The notes under the pieces: generated by a model | What the model was told of the DNA's origin: nothing | The model's database searches: none | Seen by the model: the letters and a program-made list of their open reading frames with translations, nothing else | Program-made: the position numbers and the translations under genes | Assembly: GCA_037479115.1 (NCBI GenBank) | Contig: JBBFLK010000012.1 | Span: forward strand, 1-64,000 | DNA length: 64,000 bases | Direction: 5' to 3' | Source: Anaerohalosphaeraceae bacterium | GTDB lineage: Bacteria; Planctomycetota; Phycisphaerae; Sedimentisphaerales; Anaerohalosphaeraceae | In this document: one piece after another, positions 2,557-58,122 of the stretch | Numbering within the stretch: the stretch's first letter is position 1 | Layout: every line of letters begins with the position of its first letter

Positions 2557-5500
2557 ATGAAAGTCCGAAAAACAGACAAGGGGTTCAGAAAAAGTTTGCA
2601 ATGGGTCTTTGCGGTGCTGTGTCTGGGGTGTCTTTCCGGTTCGATGCGGGCGGATTATCCGATTATGTCGCATCACTACGCCGCCGACCCGACGGCCGTC
2701 GAATGGAACGGACGACTGTACGTGTACTGCTCCAACGATGAGGAAAACGGGGAGAACACCGGCTACATTATGAGGTCTATCGTCTGTTTTTCAACGGATG
2801 ATTTGAAGAACTGGACGGACCACGGTGTGGTCTTTCATGCCGACCAGCTGTCCTCCTGGTATTCCGGGACCGCCTGGGCCCCCTGTATCGTCTATCACAA
2901 CAACAAGTTTTATCTGTACTTCGGGGATGCCTACTGGGGCATCGGCGTTGTAACGAGTGATTCGCCGCTCGGACCGTTTACCGCCCCGAAAAACGCGCTG
3001 GTCGTGACCCGGTCCACGCCGGGGGCAAACAGCACCTGGATGTTCGACCCGTGCGTGTTTGTGGACGATGACGGCACACCGTATCTGTATTTCGGCGGCG
3101 GCGGCCCCAATCAGGGGCGTGCGATTCAGCTGCATACAAATATGATCGATACGGTCGGGTCGGCTATCTCGATTGACGCCCCGGACTTCTTCGAGGCGTC
3201 TCATATGCACAAATACAACGGCGTCTATTACTACTCTTACGCCGACAACTACGAAGACTGGACCCCTTCGTCTCAGATTGGGTATCGGACCGGACCTACT
3301 CCGCTGGGGCCGTTTACCTATCAGGGGGTTGCGGTTCCTCAGCCGCCGTACAATTACGGCAACAACAATCATCACTCTTTTTTCACATTTCAAGGCGAAT
3401 GGTACTGCGTTTATCACAACCGCTATCAGGCGACGATCGACGGCGTATCCACCACGGAACACCGGAATATCGGCCTGGACCGGCTGTATTACAACCCGGA
3501 CGGCACCATCCAGCCGCTCGTGCATACCCAGGACGGGCTGCCGCAGCTGAAATTCTTGAATCCGTATGTGCGGGTAGAAGGGGAAACGCTGGCCCAGCAG
3601 AGCGGCATTCGCACACAGGTCTGTTCGGAAGGGGGGTTGAATGTCACCGCCGTCGATAACGGCGACTGGATTCGGCTTCGGGGGGTGGATTTCGGCACCG
3701 GTGCCGGCAGCTTCAAGGCCCGTGTCGCCTCCACCAAAACCGGCGCAGCCATCGAACTGCGTCTGGATTCTCTGACCGGCCCGCTCATCGGCACCTGTTC
3801 GATTCCGAATACCGGCGGGCCTCAAAACTGGACAACGGTTTACTGCAATGTCAGCGGTGCCGTGGGCGTACGGGATTTGTATCTGAAGTTTACAGGGCCC
3901 GCCGGCGGCGACCTGCTCAATCTGAACTGGTGGCAGTTCCAGACCGAACCGCTGACAATGGTGCCCGTCAACATCAATCCGGCCATCCTCTTTCAGACCA
4001 TCGAAGGTCTGGGCGGCGCGATTTGTTTCTACAACGGCTGGGTGACCGCTCATCCGTATAAATCCGAAATTTACACCCATGCCTTCGCCGGACTGAATCT
4101 GTCGATGCTGCGGGTGGGCAACTGGTGGCGGGGCGTGAACGGTCAGGATACGGCGATTTATGAAATCGTGGCCGCCGCCAATCAGCGGCTGGGTCGGCCT
4201 GTGCCGATTCTGATGTCCTCCTGGTCGCCGCCGGCCTATCTGAAAAGCAACGGCCAGACCGGAGGCGGCGGCACCCTCATCCAGGTCAACGGTCAATACG
4301 ACTATGCGGGATTCGCCGAGTACTGGTACCAGTCTCTTCAGGACTACATCTCCCGCGGGGTCAACCCTACCTGGATTACCATTCAGAACGAACCGGACTG
4401 GACGGCGGATTACGATTCCTGCCGGTTTGACCCGACGGAAGGCCAATACGCCAGTTATGCCCTGGCTCAGGACGCTGTGTTCTATCGGCTCCAAAGCATG
4501 GCCTCGCCGCCCAAACTGCTCAGCCCGGACTGTGTGGGGCTTTGGGGCAACGCCGCCGGCCTGCGCAATTACCTGAATGCCCTGAATCCGAATACCTTCT
4601 ACGGCATTGCCCACCATCTTTACGGCGGCAGCACCGACGGAACGCCCGACGGATACAATTCCGCCTTTACGACGGTCTTGAATACCCGGAATACGCAGTT
4701 TCCCGGCAAGCCGATTTTTATGACGGAGTTCGGGGATATCAAAGGGCTGATTCCGGTGGCCAATTTGATTCACAACTCCCTTGTGGTTGAACAGGTCAGC
4801 GGCTATAACCACTGGTGTCTGGTCTGGCCCGGCGACATTGGGCTGGTGGAGATTGAATTCCCCTGGAGCTACTACGGAACAGGCGGCTCCTGGACACATC
4901 CCAAAGGATACTGGCTGAATCCCTCCTACTGGTCGATGAAGCATTATTCGTACTACGTCCAGCCGGGATTCCGCCGCACCCAGTCGTCCAGCGGCCATTC
5001 GAATCTGCTGGCGTCCTCGTTTTTATCTCCGGACGGCAAACGGCTCGTGGCGGTGCTCATCAATCGTCTGGAAACGGAAACCCTGTACGCCAACCTGAAC
5101 ATCAGTTCGTTTGCATATAATTCCTCCAGCGTCTTCCAGACCGTCGGCGACCAGTATTTCCAGGCCCTGGGGCCCATGGGGTCTCCGGTGGTCCTGCCGC
5201 CGCTGTCTGTGACGACGATTGTTTTGGACTGCTACGGTCCGGCGGCTCCGACGGGGCTGGCGGCGACGGCGATTGTCGATTCGCAGATCAACCTGACCTG
5301 GACAGCTTCTCCCGGCGCCCTGTCCTACAATGTCAAGCGCTCCACCGTCAGCGGCGGGCCCTATACAACCATCGGTACGAACATCACAGGCACCGCATTC
5401 AGCGATACCCGCGTGGAGCCGGGGATGACCTATTATTATGTGGTCAGCGCCAACACGCTCAGCGGTCAGAGCGCCGACAGTGCGGAAACCAGCGCTGCCC

Positions 5501-49944: not shown

Positions 49945-51558
49945 TCAGCGGGACAGTTCGATGTGTTTGAGGAAGCGGTCGTTGTCAGGGGCGGGGTAAT
50001 CCTGCCGGAAGTGGACGCCGCGGGATTCCTTTCGCTCCTCGGCAGCGCGGGCCATCAGCAGGGCCAGCGTGAGCATATTCTGGCATTCCCACCCGAACGG
50101 CGCATCGAAGACCTTATCCATCACATAGCGCTGCCAAAAGCGGATAATCTCCTGGGCTTCGACGAGGGGCGTTTCTTTGCGGGTAATGCCGACATTGCGC
50201 CACATCAGGGCCCGCAGTGAATTGCGGACGTCGTCGGTGTCCAGATGACTGCGGCCGGAATGCGCAATATGAAATTCGATTCGTTTGGGACGCAGATGTG
50301 TTCGCGTGCGTTTGAGACCTTCGGCGGCGTGCCGGCCTGCAATCCGGCCGTACACAAGCCCTTCCAGAAGCGAGTTGCTCCCCAGCCGGTTGGCCCCGTG
50401 CAGTCCGGTAGAGGCCGCTTCGCCGCAGACATAGAGGTTGGCAATATTGGAAGCGGCGTTTCGGTCCACCTTGACGCCGCCGATGAGATAATGAGCACTG
50501 GGGCGGACGGGAATCATCTCCCGGCTGATGTCGATGTCGAACGACTCGCACAGTTCGCTGATGACCGGAAAACGCTTGCGGAAATGCTCCTTGTCAAAGT
50601 GGCGGATGTCCAGATAGACATGGGTTGAGTTGGTCTTGAGCATCCGGTCGAGGATGGCCCGGCTGACGACGTCGCGCGGGGCCAGCTCCGCATCCGGGTG
50701 ATAATCTTTCATAAAGGCGATTCCGTCGCGGTCGCGCAGGATGGCGCCTTCACCGCGCAGCGTCTCGGTAATCAGAGCGCGCGAAGCGCCGGCGATATAC
50801 AGCGTCGTCGGATGAAACTGCATAAACTCCAGGTCCCGCAGGACCGCCCCCGCGCGGTAGGCCATTGCCAGTCCGTCGCCGGTGGCGTTTTCCGGGTTGG
50901 TGGTTTCCCGATACAGCCGGCCGGCGCCGCCGGTGGCCAGAATCGTCCGGGCCGCCCAGATGATTTGCAAATTGCCCGCGCGTTGCCCGATGACGCCCAG
51001 GCATTCATTTTCGTCGTTGGTCAAAAGGTCAATCGCAAAAAAGTGCTCGAGGATGCGGATTTGCGGCATCGAACGGAGTTTTCGAATCAGGCCTTCGGCG
51101 ATGCCGCGGCCGGTCGAGTCGCCGTGGGAGTGGATGACGCGCGGATGCGAATGGCCGCCTTCGAGTGTGGCGTCCAGCACGCCGTTTATTTTGTCAAATT
51201 CCGTCCCCCAATCCAGCAGTTCGCGAATGAGGGCCGGACCTTCGGAGACCACCTGACGGACGACCTCCGGTTCACACAGACCGGCGCCGGCGGCCATGGT
51301 GTCGGCGATGTGGCTGTCGATGCTGTCTTCAGTCCGCACCACAGCGGCAATGCCGCCCTGGGCGTTCCAGGTATTTGAGTCGGCCAGCGTTCCTTTGCAG
51401 ACCAGCGTGACCGAAGCACCGCACAGAGCGGCTTCAATCGCCGCCCGCAGTCCCGCAATCCCAGACCCGATGACCAGACAGTCCGTAAAAAACTGCTGCG
51501 TGGACAAACTGTCAATCGGCACCAGATACCGCCGAAATTCCGGCTGTTTCGAAGGCAT
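49945..51558 (-). CDS. nadB: L-aspartate oxidase
   Basis: 537 residues. It oxidises L-aspartate to iminoaspartate, the first step of de novo NAD synthesis, with FAD. The FAD-binding Rossmann motif CLVIGSGIAGLRAAIEAA, the flavin-linked NTWNAQGGIAAV, the active-site stretch GGHSHPRVIHSHGDSTGRGI and the C-terminal CGEAASTGLHGANRLGSNSLLE are all present, separating it from succinate dehydrogenase flavoproteins by context: no iron-sulfur subunit follows. No nadA or nadC is adjacent. The downstream TolB-like gene starts 87 bases after its stop. Confidence 0.9.
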   Translation of the reverse strand: MPSKQPEFRRYLVPIDSLSTQQFFTDCLVIGSGIAGLRAAIEAALCGASVTLVCKGTLADSNTWNAQGGIAAVVRTEDSIDSHIADTMAAGAGLCEPEVVRQVVSEGPALIRELLDWGTEFDKINGVLDATLEGGHSHPRVIHSHGDSTGRGIAEGLIRKLRSMPQIRILEHFFAIDLLTNDENECLGVIGQRAGNLQIIWAARTILATGGAGRLYRETTNPENATGDGLAMAYRAGAVLRDLEFMQFHPTTLYIAGASRALITETLRGEGAILRDRDGIAFMKDYHPDAELAPRDVVSRAILDRMLKTNSTHVYLDIRHFDKEHFRKRFPVISELCESFDIDISREMIPVRPSAHYLIGGVKVDRNAASNIANLYVCGEAASTGLHGANRLGSNSLLEGLVYGRIAGRHAAEGLKRTRTHLRPKRIEFHIAHSGRSHLDTDDVRNSLRALMWRNVGITRKETPLVEAQEIIRFWQRYVMDKVFDAPFGWECQNMLTLALLMARAAEERKESRGVHFRQDYPAPDNDRFLKHIELSR

Positions 51559-51780
51559 TCAAATCCCTTTCTTCAAACGATAACGATATACAGTAGAAGA
51601 TGGAAGCAAAGGTTTTTCCATTATACATCTGCACGAGAAAGGCAGAAAAAAAATCAAAAAATTTTTTCCGTCTGATAAAAAAGCCGCTGCGAACGTCAAA
51701 TAAAAGTTTGCGTAGTAATACTGGAAGACAAAATTATTTATGTTTTTTCAGACGATTGCCGAAATACCAGACAGCAAGTT

Positions 51781-51917
51781 AATGGCTCTTAATCAGTGAC
51801 CCAAAAGGCCATCTTAGCCGGGGAAGGGACGGCGAAAAGTGACCCGCACACAAGGCCGATGGTAAACGCCCGCCGCAAATCCCAAGGCCCGCTAAGCCCT
51901 GTACGAGAAGAGCCATT
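51781..51917 (+). ncRNA. Candidate structured RNA of about 140 nt
   Basis: A perfect 10-bp closing stem joins AATGGCTCTT (51781-51790) and AAGAGCCATT (51908-51917). Inside are CTTAGC (51813-51818) with GCTAAG (51891-51896) and GGGA-CGGCG (51826-51834) with CGCCG-CAAA-TCCC (51871-51883). CCATC (51809-51813) could pair with GATGG (51858-51862) to form a pseudoknot. GTGACCC occurs twice. An intrinsic terminator follows 8 bases later. I could not match it to a riboswitch class, 6S, tmRNA, SRP or RNase P RNA. It may be a free small RNA or a leader controlling the sigma factor gene that starts 150 bases downstream. The rest of the 500-base spacer (51559-51780, 51963-52066) is AT-rich and shows nothing I recognise. 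Confidence 0.6.
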
Positions 51918-51925
51918 CAAACCAA

Positions 51926-51962
51926 AGAAGGGAGAGCATCGGCGGCCCTCCCTTCTTTTTTT
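51926..51962 (+). terminator. Strong intrinsic terminator after the candidate RNA
   Basis: AGAAGGGAG (51926-51934) pairs with CTCCCTTCT (51948-51956) around a 13-nt loop and is followed by a run of seven T. This is the clearest intrinsic terminator in the window. Confidence 0.85.
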
Positions 51963-52066
51963 GTCCCCTCAATATCGACATACTCCACCTTGAATATTCA
52001 TCTGTTTTTTTGATAATTTTCTCTCAGAACGGTGTCTATAAGTAAGGAGAGCAGAAAGGAGTTTTT

Positions 52067-52594
52067 TTGGCGGCGGCGGAAGACAACCTTGTACAGCAGG
52101 CCCAGCAGGGCAGCCGGCAGGCCTATGCGGACCTTATCCGCAAATACTATGGGTCTGTCTATATGGTGTGTTTGGGGTATTTGGGAAATCCGACGGATGC
52201 GGAGGATACGGCTCAGGAGGTTTTTTTGAAGGGATATATGAAAATTCGAACCCTCCGCTGTCCTGAACAGTTTGAAGGATGGATCCGTCGGATTGCCAAA
52301 AATGAATCCCGTAATCTCCTTCGCCGCCGGCGAAAAGAGACGTCCTTGTTTTCTTTTCCGGCGGAGATTTTTGCCGCAAAAGACTGTTTGGAAACATCTT
52401 ATGAAGAACTTCAATCGGCGATTGCCGGGATGCCGGCGGATTTGCGAGTGCCTTTGCTGATGTACTATTTTGACGGCCGTCGGGCTGACCACGTGGCCCA
52501 GGCCCTCGGCGTGTCCCGCATCAGCATTTATCGGCGGCTCAAAGAGGCCGTCGGGCTGCTGGGCGAAGTGCTCCGGAAAGGACGGGAAGGATGA
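52067..52594 (+). CDS. ECF-type RNA polymerase sigma factor
   Basis: 175 residues, probably starting at TTG (52067) with AAAGGAG five bases upstream; no ATG lies in a better place. Sigma region 2 is clear (LVQQAQQGSRQAYADLIRKY, YLGNPTDAEDTAQEVFLKGY) and region 4 ends the protein (IAGMPADLRVPLLMYYFDGR, DHVAQALGVSRISIYRRLKEA). It directs polymerase to a specific regulon. Its stop overlaps the start of the next gene (ATGA), which encodes a zinc-finger anti-sigma protein, so the pair is a sigma/anti-sigma unit. Target genes are not known. Confidence 0.9.
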   Translation: MAAAEDNLVQQAQQGSRQAYADLIRKYYGSVYMVCLGYLGNPTDAEDTAQEVFLKGYMKIRTLRCPEQFEGWIRRIAKNESRNLLRRRRKETSLFSFPAEIFAAKDCLETSYEELQSAIAGMPADLRVPLLMYYFDGRRADHVAQALGVSRISIYRRLKEAVGLLGEVLRKGREG

Positions 52595-55500
52595 AGGATG
52601 CCTGCCGGGACATTTGCGAACTTCTTGCGGAACGGCTGCTGGGGCCGCTTGCTCCGGCGCAGCAGGAGCGGCTCGAACGGCATCTGGAGGGGTGTGCTGC
52701 CTGCCGACAGCTTGCCCGGCAGCTGGAAAAACACGACCGGTATCTTTCGGAGTGGAGTCAAACGATGCGTGCCGATTTGTCGGACAAGGCGGAGCGGGCC
52801 GCAGAGGCCTTTCTGGCGGCTGGACCCATTCGCCAGAGCCGTCCGCTCCGCTGGGGCTGGGTTGTTTCGGCGGCGGCGGTGGTGATGACAGGGGCGGCCG
52901 TTTGGCTGATGCTGCCCAGCCGCAAAGACATCGAATTCCGGCACGAACCGTTCAAAGGAAAAGGGATTGTGTCGGAACCGGCTCCTGCCGACCGGATTTC
53001 CGCTGTGCCGGTTGTGCAGAATCAAAATCAGCTGGAGGAACAGACGAAAATCCAGCTCCGTCAGGCCCGGTATTTCTTTGACACGAAAAATGTCCCGGCC
53101 CTGGCGGCGCTGTATCAGACCGGCGCGGAGCCGACCCGGCTGGCGGTGCTGGATTATCTGGCTCAAATCAATACGCCCGAGGCCCTGCGGGTCCTGGAAG
53201 ACCTGCAGAAACAGTCTGTTCCGCCGCCGCCGCCGCCCGCCGAGCCCAATCAGCATTCTGCGATTGTGCCCCGCGCCGGTTCGGTGCCGGGGGCTGAAAA
53301 AGAGCAGACCGAGCCGCCGGCCGCAGCGGCTGTCGCACCGGCCCGACCGGTTTGGTTTGACCCCAATGCGGTCGATGCCGACAACTGGCGGACCGGTGTG
53401 CTGGGCATTCAGGTCGTCGATGCCGTCACCGGCGAACCCATTCCCGGCGCCGAGCTGAAATTTGATATGAATCCCAAAATAAATATTCCCAAAAACGCCT
53501 TTACCAATCAGTTCGGCCGGTATGAGCTGAACTATTATGAGTCAAAGATGGCTTTTCTCGAAGTGAAGATACGCAAAGCACCCTATGTCGGAGCTCAACT
53601 GTACTGGGGTCTGAATTCTCCCGGCGATACGTTGGTTTTGCCGCTTCAGAGGCGGGTTTCTCTTCGGCAGGGATGCTCAGTGGGCGGCCGAGTGGAAACG
53701 ATCGATGGCAAACCGGTGGAAGGGGCAGCAATCGATTTTTCCCTTCATCAAACCAGCCAAGAGGAAGAATATCCTCTGATTGAGGATGCCGAGCTCAAAA
53801 CTGATGCAGACGGAAAATGGGAACTCCAATCCTTCCCATGCGATTTAGTCTATGGGACCTTCAGCATTGCCGTGAAACATCCGGAGTATGTTCCGGAAAA
53901 TCCGTTCAGCATTCAGCCGCTGCCGGAGGATTTGCGGAATAAGACGTTTCGAGTCCTAATGAAGCAGGGACTCGTCATCTCGGGTCGGGTGACGGATTCT
54001 GAAGGCCGTCCGATTGAGGGAGCCCGTGTCTTTGCAGGGGCTGACCGATTTATGCGGGGTGTAAAAGAAACAAAAACTGATGTGGATGGTCGCTACAGAC
54101 TGACAAACTGCACAATTCAAAATCTGACCATAACGGTAACCGCACGCGGGTTTGCACCGGCCCTGCGGGAGCTGAGCGTTGAAGAGAATCTTCAGGACGT
54201 GAATTTTACCCTGAGCTCCGGATATCAGGTTCTTGTGCGAGTCATCGACTCGAAAGGATATCCAATTCCGTCTGTGATGCTGCGGGCGGATAGCTGGGGC
54301 TATTCATCTCTGTTCTCCATAGGAGCTCGAACGCTTCCCCACCAGGTCCAGACGGATGCAACGGGATTCTGCATCCTCGAAGATTTGCCGCCGGATGAAG
54401 TGAAGTTTTTGGTCCAGAAAGAAGGATATGTTTTTTATCAGGCTTATCCAATAACCGCGTCACAGCAGAATCGGTATGAAATTGTTCTTTACCCAACAGT
54501 CAAACTGACCGGCCGCGTACTGGATGCCCAAACCGGTCTTCCGGTGGAGCGGTTTCAGATGACGCCCGGGATTGACTGGAATAACAGCCACCAGCCCGTT
54601 TGGCAAACCAGCCAGAGAAGAATTTGTACGAATGGAGTCTATGAACAGATGCTGTATTATCAGGATGTCGGCTGGGCGGTTCAGATTGAGGCCGAGGGGT
54701 ATTGGCCTGCCCAAAGCAAGGTGTATATCAATCAGGGGCGGGACATCGTTGAGGATATCTTTCTTGCTAAAGGTCGGGGACCTGCCGGAACGGTGTATTT
54801 GCCGGATGGAGGACCTGCCGAATCGGCGGAGGTGTATGTCGTTCAGCAGGACCGCTCTCTTGCTCTGGAGAATGGGTATGTCCGGGATTCGACCCGCCGG
54901 GCGGCTCGTACCGATTCAGAAGGCCGGTTTGTGCTGCCGCCGATTTCCGGTGTTTATGCGGTGGTCGTTCTGCATAAGGACGGGTTGGCGATTGTTTCAG
55001 GTGAATCTCTTGAACAAAACGGTTCTCTGACTCTTCAGCAGTGGTCTCGGGTGGAAGGAAGAGTTTATCAAAACAGCCAACCGGTTTCGAATCAGACCCT
55101 TTCTCTTTATTCTTTACCCGTAATAGAGGGGCTGGCGTTTCCTTTTATGGCCTCTTATGACACGACAAGCGATTCGCGGGGGACCTTTGTTTTTTCCCGT
55201 GTTCTGCCCGGTCGGCTTCGGATCGCTCGTTCGCAGCCGGTTGGTGTTGGAATTATACGTTTTGCAGATACTATCCCGATTCAGGTTGAGCCCGGGCAGA
55301 CTGTCTTTATAGAACTCGGCAGGGAAGGCCGCCGCGTGACGGGACGGCTGCGGCTGACGGAGGACATGCAGGGGCGTTCCGGGGAGCACATTTCCCTGTC
55401 GATTCAGGCCTCTGTGCCGCCAGCGGAACCGGAGCCGTTTCCGGACTTTGAAATGCCGGTCGATTACTTTCTGATGACGCCGGAGGAGCAGCAGCAATGG

Positions 55501-56289
55501 ATTGCAGATTTGATGAAGACGCCGCAGATGAAAGCGTATTACCAAAAAACTGACCAAACCGAAGAGCCGTTCTTGATCGAGGCGGAAGTCCGGTCCGATG
55601 GAACATTTATCGCAGACGGGGTTCCGCCGGGAAGTTATATTTTGTCGGGAACGGTACACCGGCCGGGAGCTGTGCGTGATTCGGTGGAATGGCACTTCCA
55701 GTCTCTGGGCAAAATTCATACAGTTTTCGAGGTGCCTCCGGCCGTTAGGGAGGGGGATTATGAAAAACCTGTGGATATCGGAGAGATTGCGGTAAAGCCG
55801 TTCCGGGAATTGACAGTCGGAGAACCGCTGGAATTGCCTGCGATGGAAGACCTTCAGGGGCATCCGATTTTTCTGTCCGATTACACCGGCCGCTATCTGC
55901 TGATGGATTTTGTGATGATTTCCGGACCTTTCCAGCATGAGAAGACATTAGAGGAATTGAAACAGTTGTATCGGCTGCATCAGCCATCGGGTCGGCTGGA
56001 TGTGCTGAGTGTATGCCTGGAGCCGTTTGCTGCCTATGAACGACGAAATACATCTGTACTCAAGGCCCTTCGTCATTTTTCTGAGAAGAGGGAAATCCCC
56101 TGGAAAATCGGGCTGCTCTTGAGTCCTCTGGATTTGGACACAGCCCTTTATCGAACCCTGTTTGCTGCTCGGGGTTCTTCCCTGTTTTTAGTGGACCCGC
56201 AGGGGCGGCTTGCGGCGATGGATATTTCGCCGGAGCGGCTGGAGGAAACCCTGGCTCGGTATCTGCCCGAGGTGCCGGCAAATCCCTGA
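52591..56289 (+). CDS. Giant membrane anti-sigma protein with carboxypeptidase-regulatory-like repeats and redoxin-like C-terminus
   Basis: 1232 residues. The N-terminus has a zinc-binding anti-sigma motif (ERHLEGCAACRQ, the H-x3-C-x2-C pattern). One membrane segment (about 88-108, WVVSAAAVVMTGAAVWLML) should place the rest outside the cytoplasm. After a Pro-rich stretch, six or more carboxypeptidase-regulatory-like beta-sandwiches follow from about 265 to 1000 (for example VVDAVTGEPIPGAEL, VSGRVTDSEGRPIEGARV-like, GRVLDAQTGLPVERF). The last ~170 residues resemble a TlpA/AhpC-type redoxin, LPAMEDLQGHPIFLSDYTGRYLLMDF, but the CxxC position reads ISGPFQHEK, so it is not a thiol oxidoreductase. 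It probably holds the ECF sigma factor until the large outer part senses a ligand. Confidence 0.8.
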   Translation: MKDACRDICELLAERLLGPLAPAQQERLERHLEGCAACRQLARQLEKHDRYLSEWSQTMRADLSDKAERAAEAFLAAGPIRQSRPLRWGWVVSAAAVVMTGAAVWLMLPSRKDIEFRHEPFKGKGIVSEPAPADRISAVPVVQNQNQLEEQTKIQLRQARYFFDTKNVPALAALYQTGAEPTRLAVLDYLAQINTPEALRVLEDLQKQSVPPPPPPAEPNQHSAIVPRAGSVPGAEKEQTEPPAAAAVAPARPVWFDPNAVDADNWRTGVLGIQVVDAVTGEPIPGAELKFDMNPKINIPKNAFTNQFGRYELNYYESKMAFLEVKIRKAPYVGAQLYWGLNSPGDTLVLPLQRRVSLRQGCSVGGRVETIDGKPVEGAAIDFSLHQTSQEEEYPLIEDAELKTDADGKWELQSFPCDLVYGTFSIAVKHPEYVPENPFSIQPLPEDLRNKTFRVLMKQGLVISGRVTDSEGRPIEGARVFAGADRFMRGVKETKTDVDGRYRLTNCTIQNLTITVTARGFAPALRELSVEENLQDVNFTLSSGYQVLVRVIDSKGYPIPSVMLRADSWGYSSLFSIGARTLPHQVQTDATGFCILEDLPPDEVKFLVQKEGYVFYQAYPITASQQNRYEIVLYPTVKLTGRVLDAQTGLPVERFQMTPGIDWNNSHQPVWQTSQRRICTNGVYEQMLYYQDVGWAVQIEAEGYWPAQSKVYINQGRDIVEDIFLAKGRGPAGTVYLPDGGPAESAEVYVVQQDRSLALENGYVRDSTRRAARTDSEGRFVLPPISGVYAVVVLHKDGLAIVSGESLEQNGSLTLQQWSRVEGRVYQNSQPVSNQTLSLYSLPVIEGLAFPFMASYDTTSDSRGTFVFSRVLPGRLRIARSQPVGVGIIRFADTIPIQVEPGQTVFIELGREGRRVTGRLRLTEDMQGRSGEHISLSIQASVPPAEPEPFPDFEMPVDYFLMTPEEQQQWIADLMKTPQMKAYYQKTDQTEEPFLIEAEVRSDGTFIADGVPPGSYILSGTVHRPGAVRDSVEWHFQSLGKIHTVFEVPPAVREGDYEKPVDIGEIAVKPFRELTVGEPLELPAMEDLQGHPIFLSDYTGRYLLMDFVMISGPFQHEKTLEELKQLYRLHQPSGRLDVLSVCLEPFAAYERRNTSVLKALRHFSEKREIPWKIGLLLSPLDLDTALYRTLFAARGSSLFLVDPQGRLAAMDISPERLEETLARYLPEVPANP

Positions 56290-56297
56290 GCCTCGTT

Positions 56298-57680
56298 TCA
56301 GGAGATTTTTTCGATGAGCCGCTCGAGCAGCTCCTTGGCAGGCACCGAGCGAAAACCCGCGGCGCTGCGCCACCGAAGCGGCGTATTCCGCTCGAGGGCC
56401 TCCTCAATCTTCCGGCAGGCCAGAATGACCGTGGCGTGATTCTTGTTGCCCATCGCCTTGCCGATTTCCGGAAACGACATCTTGGTAAACCGCCGCGTCA
56501 GGTACATCGCCAGCGAACGGGCCAGCGAGACCGTGCGTTCTTTCCGGGCCGAGTGAATATCCGCGGGCTTCAGGTCGAAAAACTCCGCCACAACAGACAC
56601 AATGTCGGAGTTGTGCACCACCGGGTCGGTGCGGGCGATATGCTCCGAAAGGATTTGCCGCACTTCGTCCAGCCCGGCGGGTTTTTGGGTGAGTGTGCTG
56701 TAGGCCATCACCTTCAGCAGGGCCCCTTCCAGCTCGCGCACGCTCGAACTGACGGCACCAGCGATGTATTCGGCCACCTCTTTGCGAAGCGGCTGGCCCA
56801 TTCGTTTTGCCCGGTGCATCAGAATCCGACAGCGCGTATCGAAATCCGGCGGGTCAATCCGAATCACCATCCCCGAGACGAATCGGTTGACCAGTTTCTC
56901 GCACAGGGCCCCGATTTCCTTCGGGTGGGCATCCGAAGCCAGCACAATCTGCTTGCCCGCCAAATCGATGCTGTTGAACGTATGCAGAAACTCTTCCTGC
57001 ATCGCATTTTTGTTGGACAAAAAGTGGATATCATCGATAGCCAAAAGGTCCAGATTGCGGAAGCGGTTTCGAAAGGCGTCGAGTTTTCGTGTTTTCAGAG
57101 CCAGAACGTATTGATTAGCAAAGTCTTCCGCCGACAGATACAGCCATTTGGCATGCGGACGCCGGCGGGCGATTTCATTACAGATGCCCTGAAGCAGGTG
57201 CGTTTTGCCTACTCCATATCCGCCGTGATAAAATAGGGGATTGAACGGGCTTTTCTCCTGTTCAACAACCGTTTTGGCCGCATTGTAAGCCAGCTCATTT
57301 TTGGCCCCGACTACAAACGTATCCAGACTCATTTTCAGCGGTTCGGTGCGTTTGGCGGCAGATGCGCTCGATTTCGCCGCACCAGCGGAGCCGTTAGCGG
57401 TCCCATTGGGCTTGGCCGCAGGACTGAGCGTGCGGTCGGTGATGTACTGAATCGGACGTTTCTGATGCAGAACCGCCTCCATCGCCTTCTGCAGCGGCTT
57501 TTCAAAGTGGCTTTGAATCCACTGCGAGATAAACGGATTGGCCACGGCGATTTCCAGACACTCTTCCCGGAGCGTCATACGTGTGGCATTTCGAAACCAA
57601 ATTTGATATTGCTGAGCACCAATCTGGCGAGCCAGATGGTCCTGAATCGCATTGATTTCTTCCGTGAAGACGGCCTCCAT
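56298..57680 (-). CDS. dnaA: Chromosomal replication initiator protein DnaA
   Basis: 460 residues from the ATG at 57680; a TTG 33 bases upstream is also in frame. Domain I (INAIQDHLARQIGAQQYQIW) is followed by an Ala/Ser-rich linker, the AAA+ domain (Walker A GGYGVGKTHLLQG, Walker B LLAIDDIHFLSNK) and the DNA-binding domain IV (FPEIGKAMGNKNHATVILACRKIE). The DnaA signature normally reads G-R-D-H-T/S-T-V; here it is N-K-N-H-A-T-V, so two DNA-contacting positions differ. It binds DnaA boxes and opens the origin. Several DnaA boxes lie upstream of the gene, as in many origins. Confidence 0.95.
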   Translation of the reverse strand: MEAVFTEEINAIQDHLARQIGAQQYQIWFRNATRMTLREECLEIAVANPFISQWIQSHFEKPLQKAMEAVLHQKRPIQYITDRTLSPAAKPNGTANGSAGAAKSSASAAKRTEPLKMSLDTFVVGAKNELAYNAAKTVVEQEKSPFNPLFYHGGYGVGKTHLLQGICNEIARRRPHAKWLYLSAEDFANQYVLALKTRKLDAFRNRFRNLDLLAIDDIHFLSNKNAMQEEFLHTFNSIDLAGKQIVLASDAHPKEIGALCEKLVNRFVSGMVIRIDPPDFDTRCRILMHRAKRMGQPLRKEVAEYIAGAVSSSVRELEGALLKVMAYSTLTQKPAGLDEVRQILSEHIARTDPVVHNSDIVSVVAEFFDLKPADIHSARKERTVSLARSLAMYLTRRFTKMSFPEIGKAMGNKNHATVILACRKIEEALERNTPLRWRSAAGFRSVPAKELLERLIEKIS

Positions 57681-58122
57681 GGGTTTCTTCCCTTCTTTCT
57701 GTGTCAAAAGCAAAGTTGTGTTTTCGGTTCGGCCTATTCGATACGTTTTTTAAACAGCGGCTATGATAGACCCGTGTGGAATTCCGATGCAAATGGAATT
57801 TTAACAGTTTCTTTTCCACAGCGGACAGATATCGAAAAACAAATGAGTTGGAGAGAAAAAAAATTTCTTATAAACGGCTTATCCACACCGCAAATCGGTT
57901 TTGTGGATAACCGGTGGGAACTGAGTCTGACACGGGGAAAAAATCCGCCGTATCAATATTGATAAAACGAAAAAATCTGGTATAATGTTCGCTGTTGATA
58001 AAGGAGGACAAACAGGCAAAACAGGGCTTTCAACCGAAACATCCCGAGTTTTTTCAACACTCAGCTGTTGCTTGTCGTTGCTGAAACATCGATGAGATTG
58101 ACACCCTTGAAGGAGAGCATGT
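57681..58122. other. oriC-like / dnaA regulatory region with DnaA boxes
   Basis: Two perfect DnaA boxes face each other: TTATCCACA at 57879-57887 and TGTGGATAA at 57902-57910, with inner CCG/CGG complementarity. A near-consensus TTTTCCACA is at 57812-57820. AT-rich tracts (for example 57855-57875 and 57950-57990) could be unwinding sites. Location directly upstream of dnaA supports an origin or at least DnaA autoregulation. No further boxes were found, fewer than in many origins. Confidence 0.65.
57959..57986 (+). promoter_or_regulatory. Sigma-70-type promoter towards the terminase-like gene
   Basis: TTGATA and TATAAT are separated by 16 bases. AAGGAGG follows at 58001-58007 but no start codon lies behind it, and the next gene begins at 58123 with its own AAGGAG. 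The transcript would have a leader of about 130 bases. Confidence 0.5.

Follow-up and report, generated by a model that had tools for sequence, protein, structure and literature searches.

The raiA motif RNA, or ModT, is free-standing, strongly structured and conserved widely; it acts in trans and possibly associates with protein (PMC11706538). OLE RNA, an orphan, combines a conserved fold with unpaired stretches inside it that are likewise conserved, and forms part of a ribonucleoprotein (PMC9723947). Small RNAs controlled by the flagellar sigma factor FliA/sigma-28 include UhpU, MotR, FliX and FlgO, CjNC1 and CjNC4, and a FliA-dependent sRNA of Campylobacter (PMC10578931, PMC4626219, PMC11187230); those of E. 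coli base-pair with mRNAs (PMC10578931), and the same is predicted for the Campylobacter ones (PMC4626219). These systems are the closest functional parallels to an RNA encoded in a 64,000-nucleotide stretch of the genome of an Anaerohalosphaeraceae bacterium, hereafter the window, and this RNA is a member of no Rfam family tested. It resembles ModT in being free-standing and strongly structured, with trans action here a proposal, and differs in that ModT belongs to Bacillota and Actinomycetota and that its Rfam model is not among the matches, even at E<=5, in four homologues. Like OLE, it is an orphan with conserved unpaired stretches in a conserved fold; OLE, however, measures ~600 nt and occurs in Gram-positive bacteria, and the present RNA has no OLE match. 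The promoter-like element of the present RNA resembles the type that serves the sigma-28-dependent sRNAs, but those of E. coli are UTR-derived and none has been described with the multi-helix fold seen here; the present RNA also has a promoter spacer 1-2 nt longer and several hosts without a flagellin match.

The gene occupies a 508-nt spacer (51559-52066) between nadB, on the minus strand (51558), and an ECF sigma gene (52067), in agreement with a preliminary description of the locus, which had placed a structured RNA in a gene-free interval of about 500 bases. Features of the gene are collected in Table 1. The perfect 10-bp closing stem reported earlier is evident in the sequence as P1, which encloses 117 nt, and the further inner helices proposed at that time correspond to P2, a hairpin, and to an arm made of P3 and P4. 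The strong intrinsic terminator is likewise present, as an 11+2 bp hairpin (51924-51958) with a T7 run and a folding energy of -19 kcal/mol (z -3.4). Folding of the entire 182 nt gives -63.2 kcal/mol (z -2.4), a value that 3 of 200 shuffles match; for the core minus the terminator, z is about -1.5. Fold energy alone is modest support, and the comparative evidence is decisive.

Table 1. Positions of the RNA gene, its promoter-like elements and its structural parts in the window.
Feature	Position	Strand	Basis and remarks
Noncoding RNA gene	51773..51962	+	Start placed from the -10-like element, end at the terminator T-run; homologues with the same ends order-wide
-35-like element TTATGTTT	51738..51745	+	Aligned upstream regions (61 copies) and enrichment; weak here; order-wide form TTCAAG
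-10-like element GCCGAAAT	51758..51765	+	Order-wide form GCCGAT; resembles FliA/sigma-28 -10 GCCGATAA
P1 5' arm AATGGCTCTT	51781..51790	+	Sequence and covariation
P2 hairpin GUGACC-CAAAA-GGCCAU	51796..51812	+	Two-sided changes in relatives; A-C mismatch in the window copy
P3 5' arm UUAGC	51814..51818	+	Two-sided changes in 6/6 P3 pairs
P4 5' arm	51826..51834	+	Two-sided changes in 10/10 P4 pairs; exact register uncertain in the window copy
Conserved apical loop GCACACAAGGCCGAUGGUAA	51846..51865	+	Consensus-unpaired; holds 7/11 highly conserved unpaired columns; no covarying partner
P4 3' arm	51871..51883	+	Folding and covariation
P3 3' arm GCUAA	51891..51895	+	Covariation
Conserved junction strand UACGAG, 5' of P1 3' arm	51902..51907	+	Conserved unpaired columns 221, 223, 226 of alignment A5
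P1 3' arm AAGAGCCATT	51908..51917	+	Sequence and covariation
Intrinsic terminator with T-run	51924..51962	+	Folding; same terminator type at unrelated loci of the order

When 48 divergent copies are aligned with MAFFT by sequence only (A4), two-sided compensating changes occur in 23 of the 30 pairs that make up the four helices, a result matched by none of 500 shuffles, and 88.5% of cells form standard pairs, as against 30-44% when the partners are slid. Among 94 distinct sequences, in an alignment that leans towards the model because it was fitted to it, the number rises to 27 of 30. Helix pairs rank highest in an all-column covariation scan of the 94 sequences, and the top of the ranking consists mainly of nested pairs, which leaves the pseudoknot once considered possible unsupported. 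The consensus fold that emerges from these comparisons is P1 (8-10 bp), the P2 hairpin and the P3/P4 arm, the last capped by a large conserved unpaired loop; a further conserved unpaired strand precedes the 3' arm of P1. Between the conserved positions of the apical loop lie others that vary freely (columns 104, 106, 110). An extra helix within this loop forms in single-sequence folds but shows no covariation and was rejected. Both copies of a GTGACCC sequence previously described as duplicated do exist, but the duplication is incidental: one copy is the 5' arm of P2, and the other (51839-51845) is kept only in the closest species.

Terminators of the type GGGAGAGC...GCTCTCCC also stand at unrelated loci of the order (L186 near 4995, L187 near 3640, L192 near 5000). 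A switch in which a terminator arm pairs with P1, AGAGCC being common to both, was considered and discarded, because several relatives have terminators without AGAGCC (e.g., GGCAGGAC, GGCGGGAT). Given such relatives and the recurrence of the same sequence at unrelated loci, the terminator is apparently a sequence preferred in this clade.

DNA searches of close relatives returned full-length copies with identity down to 69%, from which a first model (R1) was built. With R1, the RNA was found in 92 of the 161 genomes of the order Sedimentisphaerales, including 48 of the 66 good ones, mostly as a single copy. A second, structure-based model (R3) added divergent copies, for a total of about 100 carrier genomes in the order, in families f1, f2, f6 and f7. 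Families f3, f4 and f5 and several reduced genomes (1.4-1.9 Mb) gave no detection even with laxer filters. None was found in 397 genomes sampled from other orders of the class or in 392 from other orders of the phylum, under stricter filters that may lose weak matches. A sequence-pattern search of named genomes returned carriers belonging to Phycisphaerae, Sedimentisphaerales, Anaerohalosphaeraceae; a Nitrospira MAG (RSF5, L163) was a lone outlier by pattern, but has no model match and was dismissed. A phage, plasmid or viral origin was likewise set aside, as searches of such collections gave no match. One genome (G008) has a second, divergent copy ~0.7 kb away on the opposite strand (L204 4411-4527 minus; 5194-5330 plus), and another (G144) has four copies.

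Rfam 15 gave no match at gathering threshold in the window or in five homologue loci, and at E<=5 there were chance-level matches only, inconsistent between homologues. An Rfam covariance search and a search for compensating changes were the checks proposed in the preliminary description for its new small RNA, and that proposal is supported by the outcome of both, with no Rfam match and strong covariation in the stems. A free-standing structured RNA at this locus is almost certainly real. The family is an ~180-nt noncoding RNA, specific to the order Sedimentisphaerales, absent from Rfam and mostly encoded by one gene per genome. It goes unmentioned in the main texts of the open-literature papers searched, and a prior description is possible; the main texts of two large structured-RNA surveys mention neither Planctomycetes nor Phycisphaerae, nor, in one of them, Rhodopirellula.

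Alternative identities for the gene fare poorly against these data. Its ~180-nt length, long closing stem, free-standing position and usual single copy per genome are shared with 6S RNA (RF00013), which invites the reading of a divergent housekeeping RNA, whether 6S, SRP, RNase P or tmRNA. The same genome, however, has genes for all four elsewhere, with SRP (RF00169), RNase P (RF00010) and tmRNA (RF00023) each found at another locus and 6S at its sole match (G000:C2:75155-75340, 53.5 bits), and the RNA shows no match, even below threshold, to any of these models. The reading is refuted for these four families. That the transcript is a small-protein mRNA or a dual-function RNA is scarcely more probable: RTGGCTC at the start of P1 could supply a start codon (in the window, ATG GCT CTT AAT CAG TGA), but the resulting ORFs have no common length, the commonest being 5 codons, and no forward frame is open across the core in 70 of 80 copies. 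A cis-acting leader of the ECF sigma/anti-sigma operon, working as a riboswitch or attenuator and proposed at the outset as ligand-sensing, would agree with the position of the RNA in the window and two close relatives (G003, G004), ~105 nt 5' of the sigma gene with the terminator between them. Only in these species, however, does the sigma gene directly follow. Of 78 loci, 41 have a first downstream ORF in the orientation of the RNA and 37 have one on the other strand; these ORFs belong to 53 gene families, so that no same-strand downstream gene of conserved identity accompanies the RNA. Elsewhere in the genus, a two-gene module separates the RNA from the sigma gene (G002), and in the sister species G001 and G005 the neighbour is instead a Sel1-repeat gene and, with nothing in between, a convergent dnaA, respectively. 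Because the next gene varies in this way and sister species have no sigma gene there, the RNA is free-standing rather than a sigma leader, and synteny refutes the leader as a general role, leaving it highly improbable.

Within the genus, the interval between nadB, the RNA and dnaA (window 51558-57713) holds variously the sigma and anti-sigma genes, Sel1 repeats, a defence module or nothing. In the window, the putative anti-sigma protein (zf-HC2 domain; 52591-56289) forms a fusion with a protein of 1,232 aa that contains carboxypeptidase-regulatory-like domains. In G002 (contig C323), an exact second copy of the final 58 nt of the RNA gene, comprising the end of P1, the terminator and the T-run, lies 2,023 bp downstream (L069 1818-1875, 3841-3898). 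The two repeats flank a gene pair encoding an AAA_21 ATPase and a DUF4276 protein (HEC-01A/B in PADLOC). In sister species, this predicted defence module was not seen beside the RNA. No integrase was seen in the 2-kb stretch. The arrangement looks like an insertion that used the 3' end of the RNA gene as its attachment site, a use to which tRNA and tmRNA genes are put.

The RNA is apparently transcribed on its own, and a conserved promoter-like element lies just upstream of most copies. Alignment of 61 upstream regions yields AAAA-TTCAAG-N16-GCCGAT, ending mostly 25-30 nt 5' of P1; conservation of the -10 part arises partly by construction because that part served as the alignment anchor, while the -35 part was not anchored and is weak in the window's own genus. 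An enrichment test avoids this anchoring bias. Of 79 regions upstream of the RNA, 50 contain T[TC]AA-N16-18-[GA][CT]CGA and 31 the strict form TCAAG-N15-17-[GA][CT]CGAT; the corresponding numbers among 2227 control windows are 18 and 0. Because the RNA copies are related by descent, their counts are not independent. FliA/sigma-28 promoters have the form TAAAGTTT-N11-GCCGATAA, which GCCGAT with its upstream AAG resembles. A related element, TTAAG...YCGATAAT, is found at flagellin genes in the same genomes; its spacer is shorter by 1-2 nt than the one upstream of the RNA. The 6S and RNase P genes of the window's own genome have ordinary sigma-70 boxes without the RNA-type element. In seven genomes, most other TTCAAG-N-GCCGAT sites fall within open frames and only three outside them, so that no regulon is definable.

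A FliA/WhiG-family sigma factor scores above the curated cut-off in 148 of the 161 genomes of the order. In the three complete f4 genomes, the RNA is missing and the sigma match is no more than weak, but family f5 lacks the RNA while having the FliA-type sigma, which makes the correlation between the two one-sided. In a few RNA-bearing genomes, such as G081, the sole sigma match is weak and possibly a fragment. Several RNA-bearing genomes have no flagellin match, a FliA-type sigma being present in some, and in such carriers the sigma would need another role. The FliA-type sigma gene adjoins dapF and/or a gene for an FlhG/MinD-like ATPase (L206, L208, L209, L210). Retention of this sigma in two genomes without a flagellin match (G067, G160) hints at a non-flagellar role.

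In the mechanism proposed, a FliA/WhiG-type sigma factor would read the promoter, and the RNA would accumulate while that factor is active. The folded RNA would then act in trans, its P1-P4 scaffold presenting to a partner both the apical loop of ~20 nt and the junction strand that leads into the 3' arm of P1. That partner may more plausibly be a protein, in a regulatory ribonucleoprotein, than a single mRNA; action with a protein is put at about an even chance. Taken as a whole, a free-standing trans-acting regulatory RNA under FliA/WhiG-type sigma control and probably protein-bound is the best reading, held with middling confidence. More tentative, at somewhat less than even confidence, is a new class of free-standing RNA confined to one order of Planctomycetota and transcribed by an alternative sigma, with the apical loop as a protein-binding, ligand-binding or catalytic centre.

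Two alternatives bear on this mechanism, one on the sigma factor and the other on the mode of action. The same free-standing RNA might be transcribed by another sigma, either the housekeeping factor assisted by an activator site specific to the clade or some other alternative factor, in which case the FliA link would be wrong. The longer spacer relative to flagellin promoters, the occurrence of the RNA in genomes without a flagellin match and TATAAT-like bases downstream of GCCGAT in some copies are consistent with this. Set against them are the agreement of GCCGAT and of AAG in the -35 part with FliA-type promoters and the lack of the element at the sigma-70 boxes of 6S and RNase P. Transcription under a FliA/WhiG-type sigma is probable, if by no means assured, and use of another sigma is an appreciable though lesser possibility. 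A trans-acting antisense sRNA, in which the apical loop or the strand before the 3' arm of P1 pairs with mRNAs, is a serious rival even if rather unlikely. The gene is free-standing, with its own terminator and a FliA-like promoter, its unpaired loop is long and conserved, and precedents exist in UhpU, MotR, FliX and FlgO (PMC10578931) and in CjNC1 and CjNC4 (PMC4626219). Variable bases nevertheless separate the conserved ones of the loop, which is unlike a continuous seed, and helices along the whole RNA are maintained by compensating changes. This alternation and the upkeep of the scaffold speak more for a folded RNA, probably with protein bound, than for an sRNA that simply base-pairs.

The literature searched says little on noncoding RNAs of Planctomycetota. 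The RNA described here offers a concrete and testable way into RNA regulation in this phylum, as well as into the role of FliA-type sigma factors in those of its members without flagellin.
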